From Brockia lithotrophica (GTDB taxonomy: Bacteria; Bacillota; Bacilli; Thermicanales; DSM-22653): DNA of 50,165 bases. Below the pieces are notes generated by a model. It did no database searches. It saw nothing but the letters and a program-made list of their open reading frames with translations, and was not told the DNA's origin. The stretch spans positions 1-50,165 of the forward strand of contig PEBW01000009.1 in NCBI GenBank assembly GCA_003050565.1. The letters run 5' to 3'. Below are positions 5,117-14,279 of this stretch, piece by piece. A program made the translations under genes and the position numbers. The first letter of the stretch is position 1. Each line of letters begins with the position of its first letter.

Positions 5117-5257
5117 TTCCCCGAGTCGCGTGGGTCTAAAGGCCCGTTTCCGCGAAACCCATTTCCTTCCAAAACCGCAAAGCCGCACAGATTCTAAGCT
5201 GGTGCCGGTGACAGGAGTCGAACCTGCACGGGGGGTCACCCCACGCGATTTTGAGTC
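5117..5257. repeat. Left 141-bp direct repeat (attachment site)
   Basis: Identical to 14109-14249 except for one base (T at 5136, G at 14128). The repeat contains the 3' part of tRNA-Leu(CAA) from the anticodon loop to CCA (5257-5200) plus 83 bp of DNA beyond the tRNA. The two copies lie exactly 8,992 bp apart in the same orientation and bound the element. The partial tRNA copy is here and the complete one is at the right end. Confidence 0.9.
5200..5257 (-). pseudogene. tRNA-Leu(CAA) 3' fragment displaced by the element
   Basis: Covers the anticodon loop, variable arm, T-arm, acceptor 3' strand and CCA of the tRNA that is complete at 14192-14279. Identity stops abruptly at 5257/14249. It cannot fold as a tRNA and is the leftover original 3' end of the target gene. 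Confidence 0.88.
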
Positions 5258-5408
5258 CCTATTCTTTTAATTGCGAATACCCGCAGCAAATCAAGGAATT
5301 TGGAGGGAGTCGAGTTAGTTTTCAATTTTGCGCCGAGTGAGGCAAAAAGGAATACGATAACCCAACTCGATTCATCAGGGGATGCCCAAAAGATGGGAGG
5401 GGTATACC

Positions 5409-6320
5409 GTGAACCGCCCGTCGTGGTCTGAAGCACTCGCCGAATTTCTTCTCCACAAGCGCGCGGAAGGAATTCGCGAGGAAACCTTGCGGGGATACGA
5501 ACGGCACGTGAAGCAGTTTTTCAACCGGTATCCCCGGGCGTGGGAAGACATGTCCGCCCTGAGGCAATCGGCTTTTGAATGGTTGTCAGAACCCGTGAAA
5601 CCGGCGACGTACAACCTCCGGCTCGTGTATGTCCGCGCCTTCCTGAAGTGGTGTCGCGAACAAGGTTACGTGGACGACAATCCCCTTCAGAAGTTCAAGC
5701 GCCGAAAGGCGGATCCCCGCATCGTAGAGCTTTCGGAAGAGACGCTAAGGGAACTTCTTCAACTTCCCGACCAAAAAACATTTTCCGGGCTCCGAGACTA
5801 TGCCCTTCTGCTTCTCACGCTTGATACGGGCATTCGCCCGAATGAGGCGTTTCAACTACTCCCAGAAGATTTCGACTTTCGAACGCTCAGCGTGCACATT
5901 CGCGCCGAAGTATCCAAGACGAAAACCTTACGTGTTCTTCCCATCTCTCCACAGACGGCGCAGGCGGTTCGAAAGCTCCTCAAAGCACACCATCCGGACT
6001 GGAATGCTAAGACGCCGGTCTTTTGCACATTCGACGGTCGCCCGCTTAACCGGTATACCTGGAATGAACGGCTGAATATGTACAGTGAGCGCCTTGGCGT
6101 CAAAATCCGACCTTACGATCTCCGCCATGCGTTTGCCCTGCTTTTTCTTCGCCAGGGCGGACATGCCTTCGCGCTTCAAAGAATCTTGGGGCACGCCGAC
6201 ATGAGCATGACGAAGCGCTACGTCGCCCTTACACAAGAAGACCTGAAAAACATCCACGCCGTGGCGACGCCCCTCAGTGTAGTCTTAAAATCTCCTCACC
6301 CGCGGAGGAGAAAGCTGTGA
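5409..6320 (+). CDS. int: Tyrosine recombinase / integrase of the element
   Basis: Catalyses integration into and excision from tRNA-Leu. The 303-residue product has an N-terminal SAM-like core-binding domain (about 5-95) and a C-terminal catalytic domain. The catalytic Arg is in DTGIRPNEA (about 143), the Lys in the SKTKTLRV beta-hairpin (about 172), then YDLRHAF (Tyr-Asp-Leu-Arg-His replaces the usual His-x-x-Arg-His, about 236-240), LGHADMS (His about 262) and the nucleophile Tyr in KRYV (about 271). I choose the GTG at 5409 because GGGAGGGG stands six bases before it; the ATG at 5382 has no spaced site. The gene points away from the adjacent left repeat into the element. No excisionase gene is recognisable. 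Confidence 0.92.
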   Translation: MNRPSWSEALAEFLLHKRAEGIREETLRGYERHVKQFFNRYPRAWEDMSALRQSAFEWLSEPVKPATYNLRLVYVRAFLKWCREQGYVDDNPLQKFKRRKADPRIVELSEETLRELLQLPDQKTFSGLRDYALLLLTLDTGIRPNEAFQLLPEDFDFRTLSVHIRAEVSKTKTLRVLPISPQTAQAVRKLLKAHHPDWNAKTPVFCTFDGRPLNRYTWNERLNMYSERLGVKIRPYDLRHAFALLFLRQGGHAFALQRILGHADMSMTKRYVALTQEDLKNIHAVATPLSVVLKSPHPRRRKL

Positions 6321-6546
6321 AAACCTTTGCACAACGAAGAGGAGCAGGGGGAGGTTACCACGGATGTGTGCGGGGGGAATTTCTGGGGGAATTAACGGAG
6401 GTGCCTACTTGTCCCGATACTTGGACTTGGAGCGGATGGAGTTCTATCTTTCCACGCAAGGGGAGATGAAGGACGCTCTCCCCCCCTACTTCCCTCCGTG
6501 GAGAGGGAAAAACAGGTAGATCCGCCTCCTCTAGGTCATAACCTTG

Positions 6547-6563
6547 TTACCCAGATTGGGTAA
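6547..6563. promoter_or_regulatory. Palindrome TTACCCA-GAT-TGGGTAA upstream of the cargo promoter
   Basis: A perfect 7-bp inverted repeat with a 3-bp spacer, about 29 bp upstream of the -35 element at 6592. Its symmetry and position suit a dimeric regulator-binding site. No second copy was noticed, so the role is inference. Confidence 0.4.
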
Positions 6564-6591
6564 GTCCACAAGTAGGCGAGGTTAAAAGTAG

Positions 6592-6620
6592 TTGATCCCA
6601 TAAACGAGGCACGGTATAAT
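6592..6620 (+). promoter_or_regulatory. Sigma-A promoter for the membrane-anchored cargo gene
   Basis: TTGATC (6592-6597), a 17-bp spacer and a perfect TATAAT (6615-6620), about 35 bp before the start codon at 6655. A strong constitutive-looking promoter. Confidence 0.8.
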
Positions 6621-6654
6621 AGTCTTTGAAGAATTTTACAAGGAGGCGATGTGT

Positions 6655-8262
6655 ATGAGCAGTTTCATTGAAAGTGTGAAAACTTGGCTCAAGAACCACC
6701 CCCGGATCCTTCGTTTCGGAATTCCCACCCTCGCCCTTGTTCTGGTCGCACTTGGAGCATTCTTCCTCCTTCACGGGAAGGGCGGGGAAAGTGCCGGCGC
6801 CCCGGTGGCTACCCAAGAAGAGGTTGCTGCCTACTTGAAGGAGCAGGAGCGCCTGCGCGCCGAAAACTGTTGCCTCGCCGTAAAGCTTCCCGTTCCCGAA
6901 GGGTGGGAAGTGCCCGAACATCTCAAGTCTAAGGCTCCCCAGGCGGTGCCTCCCGTAGAGGGAGCTTCTACGCCCTTTGTCAAGGAATACTGGCTGAACT
7001 TGCTTACGGACGAGGCGTTGGAGATTTTTAACAAGCTTCCGAAGACGCGGGAGGAAAAGGAGAAAATCCGCAACCGCGTTCTTCTTACGGGAGATGCGAC
7101 ACAGGAAGAAAAGGATATTTACAACCTGTTTGCCGATTATCCGCATCCGGTGTATATCTGGATGAGGGAGTTTCTGAGAACCGAAGAAGAACTCCAAAAA
7201 CAGCAAGAAGAATTTCTCTCCCTCTTCGAGCGGGCAAAGCAAGGAGACCCGGACGCCATCGGGCGGCTCGGTCGTTTCAAACCCGAAGATCCGGAGAATC
7301 AAAAGCCTCACCCCGAAGGATTTCCGAAGTCCCTCCTGGATGCGTGGAAGGAGCGCCTCTCCCGCTACTCGATTACGTTTCTGGGGTTCTACGCATACCC
7401 CCGAGAGGTGCCGGAATCCACGGCGGAGCTTCTAATGCTGGAAAACGACCACGATTTCAGCTCGGATGGGGATGATCTCGTGCAGGCGATGGACGAGTAT
7501 TACAAGGAACCCAAGGTTTCTCTGGACGAGATCGATGCACACCTCCACACTTTTTCTTCCGAAGAATTGTCTGAAAAGAAGTTCTTGTACGCCGACGAAT
7601 GGGTTAAGCGTGAGCCGTGGCATATCATAAGTTTTTTCCCCAACCCTTCGGACATTTCGGCGGGAGAATATTACTATCCTAAGTTTATCCTCGTCGACTA
7701 CTCCTTCGACGAGAGCGGCAAGCTCAACTCCTTCACCTTCCGCCCGATCGGGACGCGCGCCCTCTACCGCATCGACATCGAAAATCCCGTAGGAAGCGTC
7801 GTAAAATCTTTCGAATGGCGCGGCCCGGCGGATCTCGCGAAGGATACGATTTCGTTCGAATTCGCGGACAAAGATCACGAAGACCTCCTCCGCACGCTCG
7901 TACAGTACAGAGTTCCCGTGGGAATTGATTTGATCCCGTTTAGGGAGCATTTCAACGGACAAGTGAGATTTCTCGAACAAGACCCGAGCAAGATGGTGTT
8001 CTTCTTCGACTACAAAGCCTACGCTCCCGACAACATCCTTGTCACCGCCCGCGGGGGAGACTTCGAGTTCGTAGTGGGAGGGTATTCCCCCGACACGCCG
8101 CACCCGATCCTTCCGGAAGTCTTCCTCGGAGTACACGAACTCGACAAGTACCATCCGGAGTTGCGGGGTCAGTTGCAGACGCCCCTCTTCTGGAAGAAGC
8201 ACCCGACCGTTCAAGACCGCAAGCAGTGGGGATGGGGGGCTCTCGGTATCGACGAATACTAA
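6655..8262 (+). CDS. Membrane-anchored protein of unknown function (element cargo)
   Basis: A 535-residue product that I do not recognise. Residues 1-20 are basic and amphipathic (SVKTWLKNHPRILR). One hydrophobic segment follows at about 21-39 and the remaining 490 residues are hydrophilic, so it is probably a signal anchor with the bulk outside the cell. Residues about 45-75 are charged and possibly coiled; a Cys-Cys pair lies near residue 75. Acidic stretches and a FEWRGPADLAKD-type mixed region suggest a soluble alpha/beta domain in the C-terminal half. No catalytic motif or sortase signal is seen. The ATG at 6655 is chosen because AAGGAGG lies eight bases upstream; the ATG at 6649 is too close. 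It has its own promoter and terminator, so it is a single-gene unit. Confidence 0.8.
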   Translation: MSSFIESVKTWLKNHPRILRFGIPTLALVLVALGAFFLLHGKGGESAGAPVATQEEVAAYLKEQERLRAENCCLAVKLPVPEGWEVPEHLKSKAPQAVPPVEGASTPFVKEYWLNLLTDEALEIFNKLPKTREEKEKIRNRVLLTGDATQEEKDIYNLFADYPHPVYIWMREFLRTEEELQKQQEEFLSLFERAKQGDPDAIGRLGRFKPEDPENQKPHPEGFPKSLLDAWKERLSRYSITFLGFYAYPREVPESTAELLMLENDHDFSSDGDDLVQAMDEYYKEPKVSLDEIDAHLHTFSSEELSEKKFLYADEWVKREPWHIISFFPNPSDISAGEYYYPKFILVDYSFDESGKLNSFTFRPIGTRALYRIDIENPVGSVVKSFEWRGPADLAKDTISFEFADKDHEDLLRTLVQYRVPVGIDLIPFREHFNGQVRFLEQDPSKMVFFFDYKAYAPDNILVTARGGDFEFVVGGYSPDTPHPILPEVFLGVHELDKYHPELRGQLQTPLFWKKHPTVQDRKQWGWGALGIDEY

Positions 8263-8269
8263 CGAATTT

Positions 8270-8297
8270 CCCGGGCGTCCGCGCCCGGGGTTTTTTT
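8270..8297 (+). terminator. Intrinsic terminator after the membrane-anchored cargo gene
   Basis: CCCGGGCG (8270-8277), loop TCCG, CGCCCGGG (8282-8289), then a run of seven T. It begins eight bases after the stop codon. Confidence 0.93.
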
Positions 8298-8300
8298 ATT

Positions 8301-8343
8301 TTGGAAAGGGTTTGTCGTTTTGTATAATATAATTTGGTATAAT
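8301..8343 (+). promoter_or_regulatory. Promoter region of the secreted cargo gene
   Basis: Two TATAAT hexamers, at 8323-8328 and 8338-8343. The first has TTGGAA at 8301-8306 with a 16-bp spacer. The second has only a poor -35 (TTGTCG at 8312, 20-bp spacer). One or both may be used. Confidence 0.6.
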
Positions 8344-8363
8344 GCTAAAGGAGGTGATTCGAT

Positions 8364-9158
8364 GTGCTGAAGAAAGCTATTGCCGTTTTTATCACTTTAT
8401 CCCTTATCGTTTCCATTCTTCCGATACCCGCTTTTTCTGCTTTTGCGGCTACGAATACGCAGACGGTAAACATTCCCATTCAAAATTCCGGATCTCCGAT
8501 ATCCGGGGTCGCGTATTTGCCGCCTACGAACACGTCTCCGGAAGTGAAATTTGTGGTTGAATTTAGTAGAGTAAGGCTCAAACTAGTCCCTCTTCCCGAC
8601 GGGCAGAGATTGTTTTTGGATGAAATACAAAACAATCTTTCTGTACTTTCTGTAAATCCGGAGAATGATTTTGCACAAGAATTTGCAAACCAAATGGTAA
8701 ATTGGATTAAAAATAACACGGGCGGTACATTTTCTTACGGCTTGAAATCTTATTCCGGTCTCCCCTACGACATCTGGAATGTCGGCGTCGGCAGTAGCGA
8801 TCCCGGCATGGTAGGGAGAGATTTTGTGTATAATAATACGTTTTATACCGAAATCACCCTCCCAGACGGGCAAAAAGCCCACATTCGAGGCACAAAGGCC
8901 GTGATGAAATTCACGACCGGAGGATTTGTTCTTGGTGGCAATCCTGAAAAAGTCCGTGATGGAGGTATAGTCTACCCCGACAGCAAAATCGTCGCCACCC
9001 TCACCATTACGTACAACGGCATTTACGTCTACCCTAATTCCGCTCCGAAAAAACTTACTTCCTACTATCCCGTGATCCGCAACAAACAGGTTTCCTTCAA
9101 CGTTGCGGGGAAACAGTTTTCGGACGTTTTGAAGGATGGAGTCGACTCCTTTTTCTGA
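8364..9158 (+). CDS. Secreted protein of unknown function (element cargo)
   Basis: A 264-residue product with a classical signal peptide: MLKK, then a hydrophobic core (about 5-22) and a likely cleavage site after AFA near residue 28. The mature part is rich in Asn, Tyr, Thr, Gly and Val, has no cysteine and looks all-beta. It has no lipobox, LPxTG or other anchoring motif, and I do not recognise the family. The start is the GTG at 8364, nine bases after a near-perfect AAGGAGGTGAT; the reading frame excludes the overlapping ATG at 8362. The gene is more AT-rich than the chromosome, which suggests foreign origin. Export of two neighbouring products suggests a surface role for this element. Confidence 0.8.
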   Translation: MLKKAIAVFITLSLIVSILPIPAFSAFAATNTQTVNIPIQNSGSPISGVAYLPPTNTSPEVKFVVEFSRVRLKLVPLPDGQRLFLDEIQNNLSVLSVNPENDFAQEFANQMVNWIKNNTGGTFSYGLKSYSGLPYDIWNVGVGSSDPGMVGRDFVYNNTFYTEITLPDGQKAHIRGTKAVMKFTTGGFVLGGNPEKVRDGGIVYPDSKIVATLTITYNGIYVYPNSAPKKLTSYYPVIRNKQVSFNVAGKQFSDVLKDGVDSFF

Positions 9159-9163
9159 GGTAC

Positions 9164-9192
9164 TTGACATATGCACGAGGTCTGGGTATATT
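9164..9192 (+). promoter_or_regulatory. Sigma-A promoter of the 141-residue protein gene
   Basis: Perfect TTGACA (9164-9169), a 17-bp spacer and TATATT (9187-9192). It starts five bases after the stop codon of the secreted protein gene. Confidence 0.85.
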
Positions 9193-9203
9193 CTACTTAG
9201 GAG

Positions 9204-9229
9204 TTGGGCACACCTATTTTGGACACACC
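9204..9229. promoter_or_regulatory. Tandem 11-bp repeats, candidate operator
   Basis: TTGGGCACACC (9204-9214) and TTGGACACACC (9219-9229) are direct repeats differing at one base and spaced 15 bp apart. They begin about five bases after the expected transcription start of the promoter at 9164-9192, where a bound repressor would block initiation or early elongation. Function is inferred from position. Confidence 0.45.
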
Positions 9230-9259
9230 AAAACTAACTCTTGAAGGAGGATATCCTAG

Positions 9260-9685
9260 ATGGCATGGGAAGTTGTCGATGTGAAACTTCCTCGCGGTCG
9301 TGGATCGGAAGAAGGTGCGTATATCCGCGTAAGTCGTACGGGAGCAGCTTCTCTCAGTCGCGCAGCCGTTGAAGTTCTTGGGAATCCCGACTATGTGACG
9401 ATCCTCATCGACCGAAGCCGTGATCTCTTCGCAATTCGTGCCGCAAAGGCGGAAGAAGCCGGAGCTCGAATGCTCCGTCGGGCGGCAGTAGGTTACACCA
9501 AAACCATGCGATTTGCCAACCTTCTCCGCATCGCAGGGGTTCGGAAGCGTGTTGGCAATGTCTCACTCGAATACTCTGAAGAAGACGGGCTTCTTGTAGG
9601 GAAGTTAGAGGATATCCGAAACCTTCCTCCGGCGAATGAGCCGTCCCCACGCAAGAGGGGAGAGGGAGGAGAGGAAATTTCCTAG
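9260..9685 (+). CDS. Small protein of unknown function, possibly a DNA-binding regulator
   Basis: A 141-residue product. Residues about 20-60 (YIRVSRTGAASLSRAAVEVLG, then a short beta segment LFAIRAA) have the strand-turn-helix-strand look of swapped-hairpin AbrB-like or related domains; this is a weak resemblance, not a recognition. The middle is basic (RMLRRAAVGYTKTMRFANLLR), and the tail is charged and probably disordered. AAGGAGG stands nine bases before the ATG at 9260. Because the strong promoter is followed at once by tandem repeats, I suspect an autoregulated control gene of the element, but a structural or cargo role is equally open. Confidence 0.7.
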   Translation: MAWEVVDVKLPRGRGSEEGAYIRVSRTGAASLSRAAVEVLGNPDYVTILIDRSRDLFAIRAAKAEEAGARMLRRAAVGYTKTMRFANLLRIAGVRKRVGNVSLEYSEEDGLLVGKLEDIRNLPPANEPSPRKRGEGGEEIS

Positions 9686-9729
9686 AAAGGCAGTTGGTTT
9701 ATCCCCTCTAAAGTCTTCTGAAAACCTAC

Positions 9730-9763
9730 AAAAGGCGGTTCATTCGATCCGCCTTTTGTTTTT
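9730..9763 (+). terminator. Intrinsic terminator after the 141-residue protein gene
   Basis: AAAAGGCGG (9730-9738) pairs with CCGCCTTTT (9749-9757) over a 10-nt loop and is followed by GTTTTT. Confidence 0.9.
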
Positions 9764-9820
9764 GGTGTAGGAAATGTTTCATATTTTTCGTTTACTTAGA
9801 TCTTTTTGGGAAATACATGT

Positions 9821-9829
9821 GGTATAATG
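9821..9829 (+). promoter_or_regulatory. -10 region for the small AT-rich genes
   Basis: TATAAT at 9824-9829, preceded by a T-rich stretch but no clear -35. It lies about 92 bp upstream of the ATG at 9922. Confidence 0.45.
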
Positions 9830-9921
9830 AGGATGGACGTACTCCCCTTGATGTACGTCGGGGAAAGAAGTAAGAACATCTAAACTACTCTTTAGGTAAA
9901 CCGGAAAGAGAGGGATTTTTC

Positions 9922-10140
9922 ATGGGACGTGAAAATTTTGCAAAGCCAGAATACCAAAAGTTTATTTTTACCTTACTAGAAAAATATACTGCAGAAGAAA
10001 TTCACGCACTTAAGTTTTATCTTGCGTATAAGTATGAAGAATATACTAAAGAATTACCAAAAGGTTTACTTGGAAAAAGAAATCCGGAAATTTTCGATCT
10101 GCCTCCGGAAGAACTTGAAAATATTCTTAAAGATTTTTAA
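9922..10140 (+). CDS. Small hypothetical protein, upstream half of a possibly split gene
   Basis: A 72-residue, Lys/Glu/Tyr-rich, predicted helical protein with no recognised family. It is much more AT-rich than the chromosome. A GAGAGGGA-type site precedes the ATG at 9922. The frame stops at TAA (10138-10140), yet the same frame resumes immediately and stays open to 10275 with similar composition. The ancestral protein may therefore have been about 117 residues, and this could be the first part of a gene broken by a nonsense mutation. Confidence 0.6.
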   Translation: MGRENFAKPEYQKFIFTLLEKYTAEEIHALKFYLAYKYEEYTKELPKGLLGKRNPEIFDLPPEELENILKDF

Positions 10141-10158
10141 CCTAAAAAATACATTCAC

Positions 10159-10275
10159 ATGATTGAAGAACAAAAGAAAAGATGGGAAGAGATTAAGCAA
10201 AAACACAAGAGTATTCTAGAAAACGCAGAAAAAGAAAAGCTCGCCAAAAAGAGAAAGAAAGAAAGAAGATGTTAA
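10159..10275 (+). CDS. 38-codon basic ORF in frame with the preceding gene
   Basis: Starts at the ATG at 10159, encodes a Lys/Glu/Arg-rich helix (MIEEQKKRWEEIKQKHKSIL start) and ends at TAA 10273-10275. There is no ribosome binding site and it is in the same frame as 9922-10140, 18 bases after that stop. It is either a downstream fragment of one interrupted gene or a coincidental open stretch in AT-rich DNA. Confidence 0.35.
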   Translation: MIEEQKKRWEEIKQKHKSILENAEKEKLAKKRKKERRC

Positions 10276-10433
10276 TAACCTTACGATTTTTGATTTTCTT
10301 CCACCCGAGGATAAGAAAAACTTCTTATAAACGTACTTGAGTCGCGTCATATAACAAACATAAAACACTTAAAATAAAAAGCATTGGAAATTTCATATTA
10401 ACTAAATCATCCTTTGCACGCGGGGAGACCCTT

Positions 10434-10768
10434 GGAGGAGATAGAATGCTCGGGAGGAGATCATGGAGGAGATTCTGAAATCCATCTCCTCCGTTTAAAT
10501 TATCGCATTTATGCGGGTTTGAGACTATTCGGAGGAGATGGAGGGGATAGTTGTAGATGTTTATCTCTTGTTTGCAGATAACTTCTCCACGCGAGAGGGG
10601 ATGATTTTATCCTATAAATTTTTCCTCAAGAAAATAAAAAATATCTCCTCCATCTCCTCCAATATCTCCCTTCTCCGCGTGGAGACTGGAAGTTTGGCGG
10701 AGGAAATGGAAAATAACATCTCCCCCACTATCAACTATATCTCCTCCGTCTATCTTCTAATCTCCTCC
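10434..10768. repeat. Iteron array, candidate replication origin of the element
   Basis: The 9-mer GGAGGAGAT occurs exactly nine times in 335 bp. Plus-strand copies start at 10434, 10453, 10465 and 10531; complementary copies (ATCTCCTCC) start at 10484, 10643, 10652, 10739 and 10760. One-mismatch copies start at 10540, 10699 and 10718. The copies form two clusters, 10434-10548 and 10643-10768, on either side of a stretch of about 95 bp with a strongly AT-rich core at 10602-10644. This two-cluster layout around a possible DNA-unwinding element, just upstream of a primase/ATPase gene, suggests an origin with Rep-binding sites. Confidence 0.75.
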
Positions 10769-11128
10769 GCCTAATATAATTGCAAGACTAAGCACCCTTC
10801 ATGTAAACCGAACGGAATCTTTCGGAATCGAGAATGATACTTCCTAAAGTACACCTCCTTCCCCTTCCGATCGAGTTTTCCGGATTTGCAGGAATTGCTC
10901 ACAACCCTATATGTAAACCCCACGCATCGTGGGTAGTCGAGTCTTGCCCCCCTAACTCTTGAACGGCGTAACGCTTGGGTTGGTCGGAGAAACCGCGTTT
11001 GCTTTGCGGGAAGGAGAATTCGTGATAAAATGATATGTGGGGTTCACCCATAAAGCGTCGAACCAACGGAGAAACTTCGCTCCCAACAACCTTCTTCGAA
11101 CCGCGAGAAAAATTTTTTCGTTAGGGTA
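10769..11128. other. Non-coding interval between iterons and the replication gene
   Basis: No credible gene. It holds a 6-bp inverted repeat with a 3-base loop (CCCACG-CAT-CGTGGG, 10919-10933) and a direct repeat ATGTAAACC (starting at 10801 and 10911). It may be leader or regulatory DNA for the replication gene. I also saw no gene between 10276 and 10433. Confidence 0.4.
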
Positions 11129-11156
11129 TTGACTTAGTAGATAGACGTGGTATAAT
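11129..11156 (+). promoter_or_regulatory. Sigma-A promoter of the primase-polymerase/ATPase gene
   Basis: TTGACT (11129-11134), a 16-bp spacer and a perfect TATAAT (11151-11156), about 41 bp before the ATG at 11198. Confidence 0.8.
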
Positions 11157-11197
11157 AGTGTCGGAAACCTTAGAATGATCTTGTTGGGGGGATTCGT

Positions 11198-13714
11198 ATG
11201 AACACCAAAAAATATTTCCCTCACGAACTGCGTGTAATGGAAAGGTGGATTTTCTGGCGAATGGTGGACAGGAACGGACGGAAGACGAAAGTCCCTGTCG
11301 GGGAGGATGGACACCCTATCTCCCTGAAAGATGAACGGCATTGGAAGACGCTGGATGAGCTCGAGAGGATGAAAAACGATTCCCTTCACGACGGGGTAGG
11401 GTTTGTATTCACGGCAAAAGACGGACTGATAGGAATTGACCTCGACAACGCCTTTGAGAATCCGTTCGACGCGAAATCTGTTAAGCCCTGGGCTCGGGAA
11501 ATTTTGGAGCGCTTTCGCGAGGCGTATATCACGTGGAGCCCTTCGGGAAAAGGCGTCCACATCATCCTCCTCGGCACGTGGGGACAAGGGCATAGGAGGA
11601 AGCTTGGCGACGGTGGGATTGAGGTTTACGCGGACAAGAGGTTTTTCACCATGACCGGGCTGCTGGTCGAAGGATACAGCACGCCTAAACTCGTCGAGGC
11701 TCCAGAGGCTCTGGAGTGGCTTGGGAATCGGTATTTCGGCGAGGAGGAGGTGAAGAAAGGCATGAAGGGTGTTGGTGTGGTGTCGAATGCACCGATTACC
11801 CGTGCCGAGGTGCCTCCAGGGCTACCGGACAGCGTACATGAGTTGCGCCGAGCCTTGGAGAACGGCAAGACCAGCGAGGAGGAGATTTTACCTCTCCTTC
11901 TCGCTGCACTTCCGCTTGCCGGTGAACTCGGGAAACGGGCGATGCGGCTCATCCAGGGCGATGCAGAAGCTCTTGCGGAGTTTCTGAACGACCAATCCTC
12001 CATTGAACAATCTCTTGCCAACGCCTTCGCCGTGGTTACCGGCGGCGACCATGGGATGATCATCAAACTCCTTACGCTTTTCTCCCCACGATGGGAAAAG
12101 CACGAAAAACTCGAGCGCGAGGATTACCTAGAGCGCACCGCAGCCGAAGCTGTGGACTGGTATTATACCACGCACCGTCGGAAGATTGAAGTAAAGCATG
12201 GCGTACTCGACCATGAAGTACGCAATGCAGCCTTGGAGGCACTCCAATGGCGCTATGAGGGGCGACTCTTCCTCTACGGAGATGCGCCTGTAATCTTAGA
12301 GGGCGATCGCCTCCACACCCTTGATCCGGTACGTCTCTCCTTGCTCCTTGCAGACGCGGCGATCTTTCAACGCGGAGCTAAGGGGAGGCAAATCGACCCT
12401 CCGGATAGGCTGGTAAGGGCTTTACTCGAGTATGTCAAGATGCGGAATGTGTGGCCCAACCTTCGCGGCATCGTTCAGGCGCCGCTTGTCTTCGACAACG
12501 GTCGCGTGGTGAATAAGAACGGGTATGACCCCGATTCGGAACTCCTCTTCGTAAACTTGCCGCCCATCGACATACCAAGTTCTCCCACGAAAAACGACGC
12601 GATGGAGGCTTACGGGAGAATCGTCTCTATGCTCGACTTTGCTTTCGCAACTCCTTCTGACGAATCCGCCGCCGTCGCCTACCTCCTCACCGTCCTTCTC
12701 CGACCTGCAATATCCTTGGCTCCACTCTTCCTGATCACCGCTCCAAAACCGGGAAGCGGGAAAACGACGTTAGCACAGGTTGGAGGAGTCGTAGCTTACG
12801 GGCGGATACCAGAAGTTCATCCGGAACCCGGGAATGAAGAAGAATCCCGCAAGCGCATCGATGCATCGCTTCTCGAAGGTCGTACGCTTATCATCCTGGA
12901 CAACCTACACCGCGACATCCGCTTGCCTACCCTCGAAGCGACGCTCACCTCTGAGATGGTCACCATCCGTCCTCTCGGGCGCTCGGAAACGCGCACCGTG
13001 CCGAATACCGCCACTTTCGTCGCCACGGGCAACAATATCGCGCCGAGAGACGATATGCAACGTCGAACGGTCGTAATTCGCATCGAAGGGCGGTCAGAAC
13101 CCATGTTCTCAGAAACGACGGAGGGACGGAAACAGTCGTTCTTACACGAAATCCTCTCCCGCCGCAATGAGCTCCTTTCCGCCCTTCTCACCATAGTCCT
13201 TGCATACCATCGTGCGGGAAAGCCAAACGTGCAAGCCATCTCCTTCCCCTCGTTCGAGGAGTGGGCACAAATGGTTCGCGACCCGCTCGTATGGCTCGGG
13301 GCAGCCGATCCCGTGGAGACGGTTCAAAGAACGATTGAGGAGGATGAATACAGGGCGGCTTTGACAGCCATGTTCGAGATTTTGCATGAGGAGTTTGGCT
13401 CTAATCAATTTTCCTCCCGAGAGGTTGCAAATCGCTTCAATAGTTTAGTACAAACGAACAAAACAAACTCAGACGGACGTACCGATTTGATTCTCGAGCT
13501 AGCTTCCCGACTGAAGATGACCAATCGCTTCGAAGAGTTCGACTCAACGCTGATAGGATACAAGCTTCGCGAGTGGAGGGATCAGGTACACGGCGGTTTT
13601 AAGCTCGTCCGTGTGGGGACGGGGCACGGCAAGATGACGAAGTGGCAACTCGTGCAGGTTGCCACGGCGGAGGATGAAGTAAGGGAATCTCTGTCAGAAA
13701 AAGTTTATGAATAA
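11198..13714 (+). CDS. Primase-polymerase / AAA+ ATPase fusion, replication initiator of the element
   Basis: An 838-residue protein with two recognisable parts. Residues about 10-160 match the archaeo-eukaryotic primase-polymerase type seen in phage NrS-1 polymerase: an opening WIFWRMVDRNGRKTKVPV, the metal-binding GIDLD (Asp81, Asp83), SPSGKGVHI (114-122, with His121) and EVYADKRFFTMTG (142-154). Residues about 480-640 form a P-loop ATPase with Walker A PKPGSGKTT (517-524), Walker B TLIILDN (563-569) and a sensor-like ATFVATGNN. About 200-470 is an unassigned linker and helical region; the tail (710-830) may hold a winged helix. It probably primes and unwinds DNA at the adjacent iteron origin. 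A strong promoter and a G-rich ribosome binding site precede the ATG. Confidence 0.88.
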   Translation: MNTKKYFPHELRVMERWIFWRMVDRNGRKTKVPVGEDGHPISLKDERHWKTLDELERMKNDSLHDGVGFVFTAKDGLIGIDLDNAFENPFDAKSVKPWAREILERFREAYITWSPSGKGVHIILLGTWGQGHRRKLGDGGIEVYADKRFFTMTGLLVEGYSTPKLVEAPEALEWLGNRYFGEEEVKKGMKGVGVVSNAPITRAEVPPGLPDSVHELRRALENGKTSEEEILPLLLAALPLAGELGKRAMRLIQGDAEALAEFLNDQSSIEQSLANAFAVVTGGDHGMIIKLLTLFSPRWEKHEKLEREDYLERTAAEAVDWYYTTHRRKIEVKHGVLDHEVRNAALEALQWRYEGRLFLYGDAPVILEGDRLHTLDPVRLSLLLADAAIFQRGAKGRQIDPPDRLVRALLEYVKMRNVWPNLRGIVQAPLVFDNGRVVNKNGYDPDSELLFVNLPPIDIPSSPTKNDAMEAYGRIVSMLDFAFATPSDESAAVAYLLTVLLRPAISLAPLFLITAPKPGSGKTTLAQVGGVVAYGRIPEVHPEPGNEEESRKRIDASLLEGRTLIILDNLHRDIRLPTLEATLTSEMVTIRPLGRSETRTVPNTATFVATGNNIAPRDDMQRRTVVIRIEGRSEPMFSETTEGRKQSFLHEILSRRNELLSALLTIVLAYHRAGKPNVQAISFPSFEEWAQMVRDPLVWLGAADPVETVQRTIEEDEYRAALTAMFEILHEEFGSNQFSSREVANRFNSLVQTNKTNSDGRTDLILELASRLKMTNRFEEFDSTLIGYKLREWRDQVHGGFKLVRVGTGHGKMTKWQLVQVATAEDEVRESLSEKVYE

Positions 13715-13867
13715 AGGTACGTTTTGAATTAAGCACAATATACCGGATGCCGTGCTTGCCACGTATACTACCTCACGGGAACATTCTGCCGGCGATCCTT
13801 CGTTACCGTCTTGTCCTCGTAACGCACTTTCGCCCGACCCTCCACCTGCATGCTTCGGATATGCTAA

Positions 13868-13918
13868 AACCGCCCCATCGGAGGGGCGGTTATTGTTTGC
13901 CGGGCACGATTTGCCCGG
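13868..13918. terminator. Tandem hairpins at the right end of the element
   Basis: AACCGCCCC (13868-13876) pairs with GGGGCGGTT (13883-13891); a second stem, CCGGGCA (13900-13906) with TGCCCGG (13912-13918), follows. On the minus strand the first stem runs directly into TTTTAGC. The pair would stop the replication transcript and also the tRNA-operon transcript entering from the right. Confidence 0.7.
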
Positions 13919-14108
13919 GTTATAACATAAATGAAATATTTTTCTAAGCCTAGCCCTGTGTTCTTGTTCCTGACTCCACGCACGAGGAAGGCGCTTTTTT
14001 AGAACAAATGTTCAAAAATGAAAAGCGGAAGAAGGGTTGACACCCTATCCTCCTTCAGGTTAAGCTAGAACTGCTTCACTCGATTCACCAAAGGAAGGGT
14101 TGCTCCCT
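13919..14108. other. Right border interval with a LexA-type palindrome
   Basis: No gene seen here, and none between 13715 and 13867. GAACAAATGTTC at 14002-14013 fits the Gram-positive LexA core GAAC-N4-GTTC. No start codon or clear promoter lies beside it, and one such match per 50 kb is expected by chance. Near 14095-14112 the sequence AAAGGAAGGGTTGCTCCCTTT can form a weak hairpin just beyond the attachment repeat. Confidence 0.35.
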
Positions 14109-14249
14109 TTCCCCGAGTCGCGTGGGGCTAAAGGCCCGTTTCCGCGAAACCCATTTCCTTCCAAAACCGCAAAGCCGCACAGATTCTAAGCTGGTGCCGG
14201 TGACAGGAGTCGAACCTGCACGGGGGGTCACCCCACGCGATTTTGAGTC
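14109..14249. repeat. Right 141-bp direct repeat (attachment site)
   Basis: Matches 5117-5257 with one mismatch. Here the repeat joins the 5' part of the tRNA to make a complete tRNA-Leu(CAA). The element-borne 3' end therefore restored the target gene. Confidence 0.9.
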
Positions 14250-14279
14250 GCGCGCGTCTGCCAATTCCGCCACACCGGC
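14192..14279 (-). tRNA. tRNA-Leu(CAA), integration target
   Basis: A class II tRNA of 88 nt with encoded CCA. The acceptor stem GCCGGTG pairs with CACCGGC, the anticodon loop is CTCAAAA with anticodon CAA, and there is a long variable arm (GTGGGGTGACCCCCC region). It is the last gene of the cluster, and its 3' two-thirds come from the element's attachment site. Confidence 0.95.

Follow-up and report, generated by a model that had tools for sequence, protein, structure and literature searches.

Integrated elements that occupy tRNA genes, carry AEP primases and contain neither phage nor conjugation genes have been described as cryptic integrated MGEs (class iii, Kazlauskas et al. 2018, PMC5862659). 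The same study marks the PrimPol-PV1 supergroup by an arginine in motif IV. Phage satellites offer a second point of comparison. In every PICI examined, two iteron sets flank an AT-rich region immediately 3′ of the replication gene, and according to the authors no other known bacterial replicon has this layout (PMC6092414). The smaller PICMIs get by with an integrase, a regulator and a primase. They need AlpA, mostly adjoin fis, and have a primase model made of DUF3987 and DUF5906 (PMC10803314). At the level of single proteins, the closest described systems are the primase-polymerase of phage NrS-1 and PriRep1 of SaPI5, in which an AEP domain is followed by a helicase domain (PMC10516667).

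Here we describe an integrated unit in a tRNA-Leu(caa) gene of a heat-loving bacterium. We analysed a stretch of 50,165 bp (the window), which is one contig (G000:C9) of a 12-contig genome of 1,687,502 bp, probably a metagenome assembly. The initial annotation had delimited the element as positions 5117-14249; because that interval holds both repeat copies, one unit measures 8,992 bp, the spacing of the repeats. Its gene content points to a small integrative replicon of the cryptic or satellite-like kind, which we consider a likely identification. The features are as follows.

5117-5257, no strand: left direct repeat (attL), comprising the 3′ 58 bp of tRNA-Leu and 83 bp beyond
5382-6320, plus strand: tyrosine integrase of 312 aa (PF00589, Phage_integrase, 2.6e-27), 87% identical to that of the sibling element
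6592-6620: promoter-like site for p537
6649-8262, plus strand: p537, predicted membrane-anchored surface protein related to Tad-locus proteins, with an N-terminal TM helix at about residues 18-40
8269-8290, plus strand: terminator-like hairpin after p537, common to the chromosomal paralogue
8364-9158, plus strand: p264, signal-peptide protein; its longer relatives (399-965 aa) correspond to it in their N-terminal portion
9260-9685, plus strand: p141, accessory gene, absent in the sibling
9922-10140, plus strand: p72, small AT-rich ORF, absent in the sibling
10159-10275, plus strand: lysine-rich ORF of 38 aa, doubtful as a gene
10434-10768, no strand: replication-origin-like array of 12 GGAGGAGAT iterons, orientation +++-++ / --+---
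10549-10642, no strand: AT-rich centre of the array, presumed melting site (32% GC; 15% GC over 40 bp from 10604)
11129-11156, plus strand: promoter-like site 5′ of the primase-helicase, also in the sibling (11/12 matches)
11198-13714, plus strand: AEP primase-polymerase fused to a P-loop (DUF5906) helicase, 838 aa
13868-13891, plus strand: terminator-like hairpin 3′ of the primase-helicase
13996-14108, no strand: right-end non-coding segment kept in the sibling, presumed integrase arm sites
14109-14249, no strand: right direct repeat (attR), one mismatch against the left copy
14192-14279, minus strand: tRNA-Leu(caa), the intact target gene, made whole again by the copy of its 3′ part that the element brings; first in a cluster of 10 tRNAs

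The proposed integrase and tRNA-Leu borders were borne out by the PF00589 match and by a direct repeat of 141 bp, 99% identical between its copies, at an intact tRNA-Leu(caa). Flanking direct repeats produced by a tyrosine or serine integrase, at a tRNA gene or another site, are also a feature of cryptic integrated MGEs. The attR copy lies within the intact gene and completes it. The 58 tRNA bases of the repeat stop two bases beyond TTTTGAG in the anticodon loop, an end that fits a tyrosine-recombinase crossover probably located in this motif. Between the repeats GC content is 38-57%, against about 64% outside, and every confident gene of the element reads rightward. The part of the repeat outside the tRNA gene (83 bp, 5117-5199) resembles the right end of a sibling element in a second species and not the left flank in the sibling genome. 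Since its counterpart there occurs only at the element's right end, these 83 bp are probably element sequence. The simplest reading would make them a scar of an earlier or tandem insertion, a possible sign of past activity. An Rfam scan returned nothing but tRNAs above family thresholds. Comparison of the element DNA with CRISPR spacers in 21 genomes returned homologues and chance-length matches only, and therefore no sign of CRISPR immunity to the element.

The primase-polymerase/ATPase that had been read from the ORFs proved to be an 838-aa fused primase-helicase. It matches DUF5906 in Pfam and several PHROG primases. Its primase domain aligned to the NrS-1 primase and also matched 7ola; these are its nearest relatives among solved structures, a point on which it differs from the cryptic integrated MGE comparison. 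Motifs I (GIDLD), II (SGKGVH) and III (IEVYADKRFF), which are part of the description of AEP primases in cryptic integrated MGEs, are conserved with respect to NrS-1. The Walker A (GSGKTT) and Walker B (LIILDN) motifs are legible and invariant in the sibling. The domain order is that of NrS-1 and SaPI5 PriRep1, whereas identity outside the genus is only about 28-34% and the element is integrated and without virion genes. Both the integrase and the primase genes are intact, with dN/dS against the sibling of about 0.08 and 0.23, respectively, and therefore both appear to be selected for function. Searches of viral contigs with the primase, the p537 family, p72 and the integrase yielded no useful relative, apart from one weak N-terminal primase match, and two primase scans of genome contigs came back empty.

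Judged by sequence, the element fits the published description of cryptic integrated MGEs, its placement in PrimPol-PV1 aside: it shares with them the integrase, the repeats at a tRNA gene, the AEP primase with a helicase domain, and a gene content without conjugation or phage structural homologues. The suggestion that it belongs to an undescribed family does not hold as far as the kind is concerned, since the literature already contains cryptic elements that carry AEP primases and are integrated in tRNA genes (PMC5862659). The general kind is known; what is unusual is its combination with a PICI-like origin and with a constant surface pair related to Tad-locus proteins, the latter setting the element apart from the cryptic integrated MGEs.

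The origin-like array that had been noted stood up to analysis as 12 iterons in mirrored sets. Nine copies of GGAGGAGAT are exact and three carry one mismatch, all within 335 bp, while chance would give about 14.5 such matches across the whole 50-kb window. Their order is its own reverse complement, with inner spacings of 47, 9, 103, 9 and 47. The sibling array retains 12/12 iterons in identical order and orientation, with nearly equal spacings. In the window 8 of 12 sites obey the symmetry, a modest degree that about 1% of random arrays reach; the sibling shows it more strongly, with 10 of 12 sites (1 in 20,000). GGAGG is Shine-Dalgarno-like, and single copies also occur elsewhere. We rejected the reading of the array as mere ribosome-binding-like sequence on the grounds of 12 mirrored copies in 335 bp and their conservation in the sibling.

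This layout raises the possibility of a true phage satellite (PICI-, PICMI- or P4-like), in which a helper phage would induce excision and replication and would package the element. Several features agree with PICIs and SaPIs: the integrase together with a fused primase-helicase (in PICIs the primase and replication initiator are fused in some cases), the two mirrored iteron sets around an AT-rich region (PMC6092414), the small size, and the absence of structural or lytic genes. The element also resembles PICMIs in being very small, with int, a primase and a few unknown genes and no capsid remodelling genes, and PICMIs show that so short a gene set can suffice (PMC10803314). However, the array lies 5′ and not 3′ of the replication gene, the element has a single direction of transcription, and its length is about 9 kb against about 15 kb. 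No match to an Stl/Rpr or AlpA regulator or to an excisionase was found in any ORF with Pfam, PHROGs or NCBIfam, by which a diverged regulator might be missed; nor did these databases give a match to TerS in the element. In PICMIs int, alpA and the primase are co-localised, but here AlpA has no match, and the element sits in tRNA-Leu and not beside fis. No helper was found, and phage records and the viral contigs searched contained no related element. The genomes of two species of the genus (G000 and G001) contain no HK97-type capsid gene, which weakens the case for a resident helper prophage but not for a virulent helper. We regard the satellite reading as possible, if rather doubtful. The element would work like a PICI-type replicon, but we do not class it as a PICI because the regulator and excisionase tested for and the position of the origin did not agree with one. 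A PICI-type origin without PICI regulators or packaging genes, as judged by profile searches, raises the question of whether this layout is a hallmark of satellites or extends to a wider class of integrated replicons.

Capsid, terminase, relaxase, secretion and defence families were all without a match in the element ORFs tested (Pfam, PHROGs, NCBIfam, PADLOC). The claim that capsid, terminase, relaxase and secretion genes are missing was thereby upheld, and the unknown genes showed no homology to capsid, terminase or relaxase proteins that would have spoken against it. No relaxase or conjugation apparatus that would indicate an ICE or IME was matched, and no capsid, terminase or tail gene that would indicate a prophage. 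PADLOC found no defence cargo. The sequence therefore supports the initial annotation's picture of an integrated element that has its own replication genes, would be self-replicating, and carries no recognisable transfer or virion genes. Such content would also suit a plasmid-like integrative element that spreads without any phage, by natural transformation or by mobilisation in trans. Relatives of the primase-helicase are common on small non-mobilisable plasmids (121 of the 132 plasmid records with a match), and cryptic integrated elements of such gene content are known. Set against this, neither an oriT nor a relaxase was recognised, and the PICI-type origin layout is unusual for plasmids. 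We consider the plasmid-like reading plausible, short of probable.

Among 61 sampled genomes, the only full-length relative of the primase-helicase (67% identity) was found in the one other species of the genus in the sample (G001). This sibling element lies in the same tRNA cluster, and the two share the order integrase, p537-like gene, p264-like gene, array and primase-helicase; p141 and p72 are missing from it. Divergence between the siblings differs by module: dS is 0.76 for the integrase, 1.05 for the primase and 2.7 or saturated for the cargo, all above the 0.45 of zwf, a flanking host gene. Therefore, either the elements have a history beyond plain inheritance with the chromosome, or individual modules have been exchanged on their own. 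The sibling is too diverged, module by module, for a fixed vertical island, so the alternative that the region is fixed in all relatives did not find support. The comparison covers one sibling, whose left junction crosses a run of N, within the sampled genomes. In the sibling, the repeat takes in the whole of tRNA-Leu plus 34 bp of tRNA-Arg next to it, and by its sequence the target may be either gene. Because of the run of N and the reach into tRNA-Arg, the left att of the sibling was not used as evidence. Two tRNA-Leu copies flank this run of N (L007 6500-6599) at the left end of the sibling; it probably marks a scaffolding join by which one tRNA was duplicated.

The sibling also bears on whether the element is a decayed, immobile remnant of a larger prophage or conjugative element. 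The lack of transfer genes would suit a remnant, as would p264, which is shorter than its relatives and whose sibling homologue is broken in frame. On the other hand, the near identity of the repeats, the intact array, an integrase and a primase that are intact and under purifying selection, and the same compact core in the sibling all argue against decay of the element as a whole, and we find a remnant improbable. The cargo, in turn, may be decaying, because p264 is shortened and the signal peptide of the sibling homologue is out of frame. In that homologue (L007 9688-11002) the reading frame changes at a run of A, so that signal peptide and mature part are in different frames; assembly error, decay and phase variation are possible explanations.

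The p537 and p264 genes are the only non-replication genes common to both sibling elements. They had been described as two exported unknown proteins. Export holds for p264, which has a signal peptide, but p537 appears to be anchored in the membrane by its N-terminal TM segment (both segments were read directly from sequence), and as a pair they are not arbitrary unknowns, being conserved in the sibling and related to proteins of Tad pilus loci. Relatives of p537 occur in 4 of 399 genomes of the class, and p537 had no match in phage or plasmid records. AlphaFold models were poor (mean pLDDT 57 for p537 and 51 for p264); in Foldseek searches against PDB and viral structures the best E-value was 0.057, and a profile of the p537 family found no solved relative. 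From their signals, anchors and gene neighbourhoods we infer a surface role for both proteins. The small gene p141, previously put forward as a possible regulator, matched no regulator family. Both species carry chromosomal paralogues of it, 57-58% identical, adjoining a second cluster of tRNA genes (L065 15752-16168 and L066 16204-16704). Beyond these two species the p141 family was not found among 300 genomes, and phages gave no match.

The p537 family and its partner family, to which p264 and an 846-aa protein belong, are found together inside Tad-type pilus loci of two more distant genomes (G005 and G072). One of these loci (L032) encodes a TadE, a Flp-like pilin (below the cut-off), a prepilin peptidase, a T2SSE ATPase and a T2SSF protein, and the other (L044) a prepilin peptidase and a TadE-like protein just below the cut-off. 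Common to both are a long exported protein (31% identity over 777 aa) and a protein of 437-460 aa (54%). The 846-aa protein that partners p537 in the window genome shows a relationship both to the long protein of L032 (9e-13 to 7e-13) and to the sibling's p264 homologue (1.5e-5). The link from p264 to the long proteins thus runs through a chain, from the sibling homologue to the 846-aa protein to the L032 protein. The N-terminal module of the p537 domain differs by place, being a TM helix, Cu_amine_oxidN1 or CW_binding_2, and therefore this would be a surface domain with exchangeable anchors. The relatives in Tad loci come with Cu_amine_oxidN1 or CW_binding_2 anchors and with pilus genes, whereas the element has neither. 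TadE (PF07811) had no match in either genome of the genus and three in G005. Therefore, the pair would either work without a Tad pilus or be a relic of one.

The conservation of this pair in both siblings and its kinship with pilus-locus proteins could also mean that it is itself the transfer device, acting in spread by cell-cell contact or linked to vesicles. However, chromosomal genes that do not belong to the element encode members of the same families, and within the genus neither a pilin nor TadE accompanies the pair. We consider this role very improbable.

The outer part of p537 has evidently moved between the element and the chromosome. A chromosomal gene of the same genome (G000:C3:11168-12646) matches codons 71-537 plus the terminator at 93% identity (dS 0.118), but shows no relation to the first 70 codons. 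Compared with the divergence of zwf between the species, the value of 0.12 is low, and the sequences indicate that a recent recombination in the window lineage exchanged the outer part of p537. Pilus-locus surface genes that have turned into mobile cargo and are exchanged with the chromosome would represent a possible route to surface variation in thermophiles.

Based on these findings, we propose that Int would excise a circle by recombining both repeats, probably at TTTTGAG. The primase-helicase would then bind the iterons, melt the AT-rich centre and prime both strands, and a host DNA polymerase would copy the circle. Without transfer machinery of its own, the element would reach new cells passively, through packaging by a helper phage, natural transformation, vesicles, or a ride on another element or a conjugative partner; its movement may depend on a helper. 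The constant cargo would be a two-gene surface module of membrane-anchored p537 and secreted p264, akin to the pair of Tad pilus loci and swapped with host copies by recombination. Its likeliest effect would be an altered host surface, in attachment or in phage adsorption. A bolder reading, which we put forward as speculative and on balance unlikely, is that of a new satellite-like replicon lineage of deep-branching thermophilic Bacillota, which would combine a PICI-type origin with an NrS-1-type primase-helicase and spread interchangeable surface alleles. If true, surface alleles would recombine with chromosomal copies and change host attachment or phage recognition.

Some further loci were observed alongside. 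A chromosomal p537 paralogue neighbours the tmRNA gene in the interval from ppdK to the cobalt-transport genes (L028 10662-11013 and 11227-12924; G000:C3). In the other species (L031) the ppdK-cbi interval carries different alleles of the p537 family and gave no tmRNA match, so this position looks like a variable locus. In the window genome, a second p537-like gene is paired with the 846-aa exported protein near a contig end (L030 2951-7171, G000:C1), and this pair adjoins an IS607-like serine recombinase and a broken TnpB-like gene. Another integrated region, in G005 (L034 8484-14957), encodes a 903-aa primase; it also has a tyrosine integrase gene that a transposase seems to have interrupted.
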